From: Hydrotalea flava
GTDB lineage: Bacteria; Bacteroidota; Bacteroidia; Chitinophagales; Chitinophagaceae
Direction of reading: 5' to 3'
Assembly (NCBI RefSeq): GCF_001623405.1
Contig: NZ_LUHG01000100.1
Coordinates: forward strand, 62,001-126,000
Length of the DNA: 64,000 nt
Of the stretch, positions 11,152-14,194 are shown one piece after another. Position numbers and translations under genes: made by a program. How positions within the stretch are numbered: the stretch's first letter is position 1; the number at the start of each line of letters is the position of its first letter. Below the pieces are notes generated by a model, which saw only the letters and a program-made list of their open reading frames with translations, did no database searches and had not been told where the DNA came from.

Positions 11152-11289
11152 GGGCATTGTATGCCATGAAATGCATACATGTTATAAAATTTACGCAAAG
11201 ATTAACCAGTGATGCAATTGTTAAACAACATTTAAACAATGTTTGAAATTATTAGAGATTCTATGCAGAAAAATGGTTTAATTAGCACT

Positions 11290-12996
11290 ATGTCTAAACC
11301 TTTGTTAGAAATCAATCAACTATCAGTTGATTTTGTTCAAAATAAAAACATTACTACTGCTATTGAAAACATTCAGTTCACAATATCGCGGGGCGAATGG
11401 GTGGCCATTGTGGGAGAAAGCGGTAGTGGCAAATCTGTTACCGCCCTGTCAGTACTACGTTTAATTGCAAGCCCTCCTGCTTTTTACAAAAACGGGAGTA
11501 TTGTTTACAATAACAAGGAAGAAACGATTGATTTGCTTACTACCGGAATGCAACAAATACGCAACATCAGAGGTCAAAAAATTGCCATGATTTTTCAAGA
11601 ACCCATGTCATCGCTGAATCCCATCATGACTTGTGGCAAGCAGGTAACAGAAGCTATAAAAGCTCATTTGTCAATGGGAAAAAAAGCAGCTAAACAAAAA
11701 GCGCTGGCCTTATTTCAACAGGTACAATTACCCGATCCGGAACGTTTATTTTATAAATACCCACATGAACTAAGTGGCGGCCAAAAACAAAGAGTGATGA
11801 TTGCCATGGCCATGAGTTGCCAGCCCGACCTGTTGATCTGCGATGAACCTATCACAGCTCTGGATGCTACCGTTCAAAAAATTTTGCTCAATTTATTACA
11901 GCAACTACAAAGAACCCATCAAATGGCACTCCTGTTCATTAGCCACGATTTAGGGGTAGTGAAAAAATATGCACAAAAAGTATTGGTGATGTATAAAGGA
12001 AAAATTGTTGAAAGCAATACCAACGATGTTATTTTTAGTCATCCTGCGCATCCTTATACAAAAGCCTTGTTAACCTGCCGCCCATCCATGTACCATCATG
12101 GGCAACATTTACCGCTGGTTCAGGATTTAATGGAAAAATTAATAGACGGGAGTATCATTGCAAAAACATATCATCCACCGGCTTTAAAATATTCATCAAC
12201 AATTGCACCTATCAGTAAAACCCCAATTTTGCAGGTACAACAGCTGAATATTCGTTTTCCTATTAAAAGAAATATGGCAGGCACCCCAATTGCCTTCCAA
12301 AACATATTGCACAATATTCATTTTGAAGTGTATACAGGTGAAATTTTGGGTGTGGCAGGTGAAAGTGGATGTGGCAAAAGCACATTGGCAAAAGCCATCA
12401 TGCAAATTATACCTGTTGAATTTGGTTCCATTCACTTTAATGGAATGAATTTATCTGCCTTATCTTCTACAAATAAGCACTGGCGCAAAGAAATACAAAT
12501 GGTTTTTCAGGACCCTTATACCTCATTAAACAGCCGCCAAACCATTGGAGAAACTATTGCCGAACCAATGAAAGTACACGGGTTGTTTGCAACGCCATCT
12601 GAAAAGAAAGAACATGTGTTGGCTTTGCTGGAGAAAGTAAAACTCAATCCCAATTATTATAGCCGTTATCCTAAAGAACTCAGTGGTGGTCAAAGACAAA
12701 GAGTGGTGATTGCACGAGCTTTGGCAGTACATCCAAGCCTCATTATTTTCGATGAGAGTGTAGCAGCATTGGATGTAAGTGTGCAGGCACATATTTTAAA
12801 TTTAATCAATGATTTAAAAAATGAATTCAATTATACAGGTATCTTTATTTCGCACGATATGGGTGTTGTAAAATATATCAGCGACAGAATAATGGTAATG
12901 AATAAAGGCAGAATAGAAGAAATAGGTACTACAGAACAAATTTTCCATCATCCGGCAAGCGCTTATACCCAAACCCTAATCAATGCCATGCTGTAA
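11290..12996 (+). CDS. ABC transporter ATPase with two fused nucleotide-binding domains (oligopeptide/nickel type)
   Basis: A fused DppD-DppF or YejF/GsiA-like protein that would power uptake of peptides or similar solutes. With the ATG at 11290 (MSKPLLEI) it has 568 residues; an in-frame ATG at 11239 would add 17 residues that do not look like the family. Domain 1 has Walker [10 protein letters not shown], signature LSGGQKQRV and Walker B LLICDEP. Domain 2 has [18 protein letters not shown] and LIIFDES, where serine replaces the usual proline after the catalytic Glu. Both domains end in the oligopeptide-family HPAxxYT motif. No permease or binding-protein gene is adjacent. Confidence 0.9.
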
Positions 12997-13014
12997 TATA
13001 TTTGCATGATTTAC

Positions 13015-13045
13015 TTTGTAAGTATAGCGAATAAGCTTAACTTTG
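13015..13045 (+). promoter_or_regulatory. Promoter of queA
   Basis: TTTG at 13015-13018 and TAACTTTG at 13038-13045 are separated by 19 nt, a full match to the Bacteroidota sigma-factor consensus. Transcription should start near 13049, giving a leader of roughly 95 nt, unusually long for this window. Confidence 0.75.
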
Positions 13046-13060
13046 CACCCTTCAAAAAAA

Positions 13061-13117
13061 TTCATGCCGTAACATGAAGCGAGTCGCCCCGTAAGGCGGC
13101 GGCAAACTGAATGTGGC
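13061..13117 (+). ncRNA. Structured queA 5' leader with tandem CCGTAA-loop hairpins (candidate cis-regulatory RNA)
   Basis: Two consecutive hairpins lie in the leader. The first pairs TTCATG (13061-13066) with CATGAA (13073-13078), and the second pairs GTCGCC (13083-13088) with GGCGGC (13095-13100, one G-U). Both close over the same 6-nt loop, CCGTAA, and the loops are 22 nt apart. A competing fold pairs GCC and ACAT (13066-13068, 13072-13075) with ATGTGGC at 13111-13117. The segment is a GC-rich island in AT-rich sequence. I do not recognise it as a preQ1, SAM or guanidine riboswitch. Regulation of queA is inferred from position. Confidence 0.55.
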
Positions 13118-13144
13118 TATCATTTCAAAAAAAAGATTAGACAC

Positions 13145-14194
13145 ATGAAATTATCTCAATTTCGATTCGATTTACCGTTAAATCTAATTGCACAAAACCC
13201 CACAAAAAGAAGAGAAGACAGCCGTATGATGGTGGTTGATCGTAAAACCGGCAACATGGAAAACAAACATTTCCGAGACATATTGGAATATTTTGACGAT
13301 AAGGATGTGTTTGTAGTGAACAATACCAAGGTTTTTCCAGCAAGAATGTATGGCAGAAAAGAAAAAACCGGCGCAAAAATTGAAGTTTTCCTGTTAAGAG
13401 AACTCAATAAACCCAACAGGTTATGGGATGTTATTGTAGATCCAGCCCGTAAAATTAGAGTAGGTAATAAATTGTATTTTGGTGATAATGAAGAATTGGT
13501 GGCAGAAGTAATTGATAACACCACCAGCCGTGGCCGTACCATTCGTTTTTTGTGGGAAGGAGATGACGCCAGTTTTAAAGAAATGCTGGAAACACTCGGT
13601 GAAACACCCTTACCCAAATACATTAAACGCAAACCCGATGAAGAAGATAAAGAGCGCTACCAAACCGTTTATGCAAAATATGAAGGTGCTGTAGCAGCCC
13701 CCACTGCAGGTTTGCATTTTAGTAAAGAGTTAATTAAACGCTGCGAAATTCAAGGTATCCGTTTTGCGGAAGTTACACTGCATACCGGCTTAGGTACTTT
13801 TAGGCCCATTGAAGTAGAAGATTTAAGTAAACACAAAATGGATGCAGAATACTATCAAATTACAGAAGAAGCCTGCCGCATTGTGAATACGGCCAAACAA
13901 ACCGGCCATCGCATCTGCTCAATTGGTACCACTACCATGCGTGCTATGGAAAGTAGTTTTACTGCACAAAAATTATTAAAGCCCAGTGAAGGTTGGACCA
14001 ATCATTTTATACATCCTCCCTATGAATTTAGTGTGGCAGACAGTTTGGTAACCAATTTTCATTTACCCAAAACTAGTTTGTTAATTATGACTTGTGCATT
14101 TGCGGGTTATGACTTAACCATGGAGGCTTATAAAAAAGCAATAAAAGATAAATATCGTTTCTTCAGCTATGGTGATGCTTTACTGATTATTTAA
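13145..14194 (+). CDS. queA: S-adenosylmethionine:tRNA ribosyltransferase-isomerase
   Basis: Transfers and isomerises the ribosyl part of SAM onto preQ1-modified tRNA to give epoxyqueuosine at wobble position 34. The 349-residue protein starts with [18 protein letters not shown] and contains [21 protein letters not shown] and [11 protein letters not shown], all typical of the family. It is a single-gene unit with a clear promoter, a roughly 95-nt structured leader and a terminator shared with lysC. No other queuosine gene is in the window. Confidence 0.96.

Follow-up and report, generated by a model that had tools for sequence, protein, structure and literature searches.

The queA leader of Hydrotalea flava, a member of Rfam family RF03093, as a probable cis-acting translational switch

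Introduction

In the thrS operator of E. coli, which is under autogenous control, the leader carries two anticodon-like hairpins (PMC9976931), mimics of the anticodon arm placed upstream of a gene for a tRNA-binding enzyme (PMC9976931, PMC6542539). Two further groups of small leader RNAs invite comparison with the locus described here, namely the preQ1-I, -II and -III riboswitches, which likewise concern the queuosine pathway and lie near the translation start, and guanidine-II (mini-ykkC), in which two short hairpins likewise carry similar loops containing CG. The closest described system is RF03093, the queA RNA of Rfam, an entry that is typed as sRNA and whose description assigns no function. 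A literature search, which did not cover the original description of the motif, found no paper in which RF03093 is discussed.

Here we analyze a leader of queA in a window of 64,000 nucleotides from Hydrotalea flava (the whole stretch of DNA studied, to which all positions refer), together with its counterparts in about 250 relatives. The original prediction, made from the window alone, had taken two tandem hairpins upstream of queA to be a new RNA element.

Results

Layout of the locus

The features of the locus are as follows.

13015..13045, + strand: putative Bacteroidota promoter, with TTTG at 13015-13018, 19 nt, and TAACTTTG at 13038-13045 (from sequence)
13061..13078, + strand: P1 hairpin, strand 1 at 13061-13066 and strand 2 at 13073-13078 (helix of RF03093)
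13067..13072, + strand: CCGUAA hexaloop of P1, candidate recognition motif, near-invariant in P1-bearing leaders
13083..13103, + strand: P2 hairpin, loop CCGUAA/GUAA (Rfam helix, minimum free energy (MFE) fold; covarying, but variable)
13072..13117, + strand: P-alt, likely helix enclosing P2 and excluding P1 and P3 (MFE fold of the nascent transcript up to 13130)
13111..13146, + strand: P3, the predicted helix on the start codon, in which AUGUG 13111-13115 pairs with CACAU 13142-13146 and further pairs form above (MFE, covariation, swap tests)
13145..14194, + strand: queA, presumably S-adenosylmethionine:tRNA ribosyltransferase-isomerase, as established for its family, 349 aa (open reading frame)

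The two 6-bp hairpins over an identical loop are present as first described: P1 reads TTCATG-CCGTAA-CATGAA (13061-13078), and the second hairpin, 22 nt from it, reads GTCGCC-CCGTAA-GGCGGC (13083-13100). They form the sole pair of 6-bp hairpins at most 40 nt apart with identical hexaloops in the 64-kb window, and no same-loop pair occurred in 60 Markov shuffles of it. MFE folding prefers a longer stem for the second hairpin, 13083-13103, which includes 13083-13100 and closes as CC-GUAA-GG. The consensus of Bacteroidota promoters is TTG-N19-TAnnTTTG, and the putative promoter fits this type, in agreement with the leader of about 95 nt that had been proposed between promoter and queA ATG (13145); the putative mRNA start would lie about 11 nt from P1. 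TACCTT/CTTTGC is among the commonest hexamers in the leaders of relatives. Upstream, an open reading frame of 585 aa (11239-12996) ends about 150 nt before queA; its single chain combines two ATPase domains of ABC transporters, with two Walker A motifs and two LSGGQ-like motifs, and by eye it is of the oligopeptide-transporter type.

The element belongs to RF03093

Scanning with cmscan identified window positions 13061-13120 as RF03093, a match that scored 73.3 bits (gathering cut-off 52.6) over the full length of the model (positions 1-59 of 59). In the alignment both hairpins are present and the conserved tail CUGAAUGUGGCUAU comes after them, as the family demands, and the element sits upstream of queA, as it does in the relatives. 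The hairpin pair before queA is thus a member of an already known family, sharing with it sequence, both hairpins and gene, and the claim of novelty does not hold. What did hold of that prediction is a structured, conserved leader element tied to queA with CCGUAA loops that carry meaning.

In a Rfam scan of 12950-13200 with E values up to 1, the only other hit was a sub-threshold match to FopS on the opposite strand. No SAM riboswitch model matched, nor did preQ1-I, -II or -III, from which the element also differs in gene context and structure. The guanidine-II model was equally without a match; the loops here are CCGUAA and not ACGR, many relatives have a single hairpin, and the gene context is another one.

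The RF03093 model reaches no further than 13120, and neither P3 nor P-alt appears in its structure line. It also misses half of the leaders with P1, P2 and P3, as well as the minimal and P2-only leaders described below. As far as the sources show, and the original motif description aside, the known family is extended here by P3, by P-alt and by a broader range of leaders with CCGUAA.

Distribution and association with queA

Across the phylum the Rfam model matches 3 of 395 genomes, each of them from Chitinophagaceae. Within that family it matches 46 of 394 genomes, and a queA orthologue is found in 375 of the 394. We built an extended covariance model from 40 sequences with P3 added as a third helix, and this model matches 92 of the 394 genomes, in 28 of 101 genera. 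Its matches across the order all lie within Chitinophagaceae, with 0 of 61 genomes matched in the sister family f2.

All 47 additional loci found with the extended model and examined lie directly upstream of queA. The same applies to every earlier locus with downstream DNA, except one (L033) in which the remaining DNA is too short to assign. Searches for the hairpin cores gave a consistent picture: neither the P1 core CATGCCGTAACATG (45 of 50 genomes matched) nor the P2 core GGYGCCGTAAGRCC (26 of 27) is found more than once in any genome searched, and every match lies immediately upstream of queA on its strand. On these sequence comparisons the element is, as we read it, a cis leader of queA, with one element for each copy of the gene. 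It is conserved before queA orthologues, the point on which the original prediction was to stand or fall.

Most of 30 Chitinophagaceae genomes examined carry, besides queA, a second and distant QueA-like gene (for instance G400:C20:27157-27996), with 32-40% identity and an open reading frame of about 405-470 aa; no CCGUAA hairpin core was found at this gene in the genomes searched.

Helices P1 and P2 and the CCGUAA loop

The outer three pairs of P1 covary and are the top-ranked pairs by mutual information (MI), and the swap test for P1 gave z = -7.4. P2 also covaries but varies among relatives. Stems change with compensation while the loop stays, as in UUCAUA-CCGUAA-UAUGAA (L264) and UUCGUG-CCGUAA-CACGAA (L367); the exceptions in the P1 loop are CCGAAA in L022 and L195. 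The loop is also kept beyond the reach of both models. Among 62 distinct leaders missed by both, 50 contain CCGTAA (3.1 expected), usually as the loop of a hairpin whose stem has at least 5 bp, and none contains its reverse complement; a Rfam scan of 20 sampled leaders of this group gave none above threshold. Sequence comparison points to the CCGUAA hexaloop as the constant part of queA leaders. Tandem loops as originally described are kept in part of the family only: 61 of 146 distinct leaders combine CCGUAA in P1 with CCGUAA or CUGUAA in P2, the exact CUGUAA being found in P2 of 9 distinct leaders. The idea that the repeated loop matters is supported.

Three kinds of leader occur: a minimal 18-nt hairpin, the form modelled by Rfam, and one with P2 only, GGYG-CCGUAA-GRCC. 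In the minimal form the CCGUAA hairpin contains the AUG of queA itself (L069, L128, L143, L144, L241, L243 and L330-L334). P1 is absent in several genera; in L207, L208, L211, L216, L221, L231 and L232 it has decayed, whereas P2 (GCCCCGUAAGGC), the tail and P3 are kept.

Two other readings of the loop were considered and set aside. The second CCGUAA might be a mere stable GUAA tetraloop, but this is insufficient as a full explanation, since GGYG-CCGUAA-GRCC hairpins cannot close CC/GG and still keep CCGUAA. A pseudoknot joining CCGUA of loop 1 to UGUGG of the tail would be sterically tight and gave no covariation signal (swap z of about -0.5).

The start-codon helix P3

The conserved tail carries (A)UGUG, which in almost every relative can pair with CACA(U) of the start-codon region. 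Aligning P1, P2 and P3 together, 57 cells are changed on both sides compared to 24 in shuffles, and 84% of the cells are paired compared to at most 55% when the structure is slid. Compensatory pairs in P3 include UGUGG/CCACA (L015), UGUGC/GCACA (L164), UGUAACAAUU/AAUUGUACA (L213) and AUGUAAUAA/UUAUUACAU (L224), with UGUGA/UCACA as a further case in distant leaders. These observations are corroborated by an alignment-free swap test on 68 distinct leaders, in which a leader pairs with its own start region better than other leaders do (z = -6.3), the four controls ranging from z = 1.7 to -1.7. In genus g186 (L160, L161, L163, L165, L194) and in L162 P3 and its CACA strand persist, although the AUG of queA lies 60-110 nt beyond P3, indicating that burial of the start codon is not the whole story there.

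The competing helix P-alt

The competing pairing with 13111-13117 that had been predicted is borne out by MFE folding and energy estimates. In the window it comprises ACAU 13072-13075 with AUGU 13111-13114, AG 13078-13079 with CU 13107-13108, and GCC 13066-13068 with GGC 13115-13117; in L212, L214, L222 and L233 (genera g13, g178 and g12) P-alt reaches about 8-14 bp (10-14 bp in the first three), and L221 carries a compensatory ACAC/GUGU change. A fixed-register count of covariation was no better for P-alt than for a slide of +1, and since this count gave no clear separation we used an alignment-free swap test with the bases of P2 trimmed out. At three clustering levels this gave z values of -2.8 to -6.6, compared to -0.4 to -2.5 for reversed controls, which across the swap tests reach about -2 to -3. 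Energy estimates suggest a consistent flip: P-alt is preferred by the nascent RNA, before strand 4 is made, in 115 of 139 leaders, and once the leader is complete the P1 state is preferred in 126 of the 139. Strand 1 of some relatives is able to pair with the start codon in the P-alt state, which may therefore be incompletely open.

At the level of sequence, comparison among relatives establishes the association with queA in cis, P1, P3 and the conservation of the loop. It supports P-alt and switching too, at a weaker level, P-alt being a likely helix that is not proven.

Discussion

We propose that RF03093 is probably a cis-acting translational switch of queA. Strand 1 (UUCAUG) would pair with strand 2 (CAUGAA) to form P1, and the tail, as strand 3, would pair either with strand 2, giving P-alt, or with strand 4 in the start-codon region, giving P3. 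P1 and P3 are predicted to be compatible, burying the start codon, and P-alt would exclude both, in which case the start codon could be freed. An effector recognizing the CCGUAA loop of P1 (and that of P2 where present) would stabilize P1 and leave the tail free for P3, and queA would be repressed; in the 18-nt form the recognized hairpin holds the start codon, and binding would also repress. We infer repression as the direction, as well as the existence and nature of the effector: the recognized hairpin and the hidden start codon coincide in the minimal and the full forms, and binding to CCGUAA should therefore repress queA.

Our preferred, tentative candidate for the effector is QueA itself, which would bind the hairpin as an anticodon-loop-like structure. 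QueA is the lead because the loop resembles the anticodon loop of tRNA-Tyr and no other gene in the genomes searched carries it, and the exclusive link of the element to queA favours feedback by QueA. CCGUAA agrees with CUGUAA of the anticodon loop of the genome's own tRNA-Tyr at 5 of 6 positions, and we estimate that by chance about 2% of 6-mers would agree equally well with one of the four queuosine tRNAs, assuming uniform bases and uncorrected for the choice of hypothesis. U33-G34-U35 matters for queuosine enzymes. The C in place of U33 makes the mimicry imperfect and counts against the QueA reading. The nearest precedent, by analogy, may be the thrS operator: the queA leader, too, precedes the gene of a tRNA-binding enzyme and has one or two anticodon-loop-like hairpins (CCGUAA or CUGUAA, compared to CUGUAAA in tRNA-Tyr), and the translation start is the apparent target in both. 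It differs in its loop of 6 nt, usually with C instead of U33, and in an added layer of helix exchange. That QueA represses its own mRNA throughout the family, through one or two hairpins that imitate the anticodon loop of the queuosine tRNA on which it acts, seems to us unlikely.

A small molecule, such as preQ1, SAM or another, is about as likely an effector as QueA. In its full form, a metabolite riboswitch whose CCGUAA hairpins bind preQ1, epoxyqueuosine or SAM, with P1/P3 and P-alt as the expression platform, we consider rather doubtful. Loop and tail are very highly conserved and the helices covary, as is typical of aptamers, the genome of the window yielded no preQ1-I element, and binding of a queuosine precursor is within reach of very small RNAs, as preQ1 riboswitches demonstrate (PMC7266159); however, a preQ1 or SAM sensor would be expected on other genes of the pathway, whereas among the genomes searched the element is on queA only, the locus has no Rfam riboswitch match, and 18 nt is small for a selective aptamer. 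A ligand-dependent kissing pair of the tandem loops through the self-complementary CG, in the manner of guanidine-II, would make use of the two identical loops and their spacing and would fit the leaders that keep both; it is very improbable given the many leaders with a single CCGUAA hairpin, loops other than ACGR, the missing mini-ykkC match and a gene that is not a guanidine gene.

Slightly less probable still is a small RNA acting in trans or an attenuator of transcription in place of a translational leader. The Rfam type would suit the former, but the behaviour in our comparison is that of a cis leader: core matches always lie on the queA strand, the element ends at or overlaps the start codon, which itself takes part in covariation, and no T-run follows P3. 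The near-invariance of AUGCCGUAA in P1 and the closeness of P1 to the putative mRNA start would also suit a translated mini-ORF, AUG-CCG-UAA (Met-Pro-stop), controlling queA by ribosome occupancy. We rejected this reading, which we hold to be extremely unlikely, on three leaders: L264 keeps the loop but has AUA in place of AUG, compensated by a U, L367 has GUG-CCGUAA-CAC, and L022 loses the stop. Neither the Pro codon nor the stop shows synonymous variation.

With a start-codon helix, a competing helix and a constant CCGUAA loop, the comparison makes RF03093 testable, and the 18-nt form offers an ideal minimal substrate for binding tests. Were QueA the effector, a queuosine enzyme would regulate its own synthesis through an anticodon mimic, that is, by feedback through substrate mimicry; were it a metabolite, the leader would be a further riboswitch of the queuosine pathway or of SAM, and an unusually small one.

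Finally, two observations concern the genomes themselves. Two contigs from metagenome-assembled genomes, labelled Comamonas (L092, CALPWK020000078.1) and Sphingobacterium (L133, CALPNW020000156.1), carry queA leaders and QueA of the Chitinophagaceae type, and are probably mislabelled or contaminating. Genome G719 (contamination 2%) has two copies of queA, each with its own leader element (L200 and L202), reflecting either a duplication or two mixed strains.
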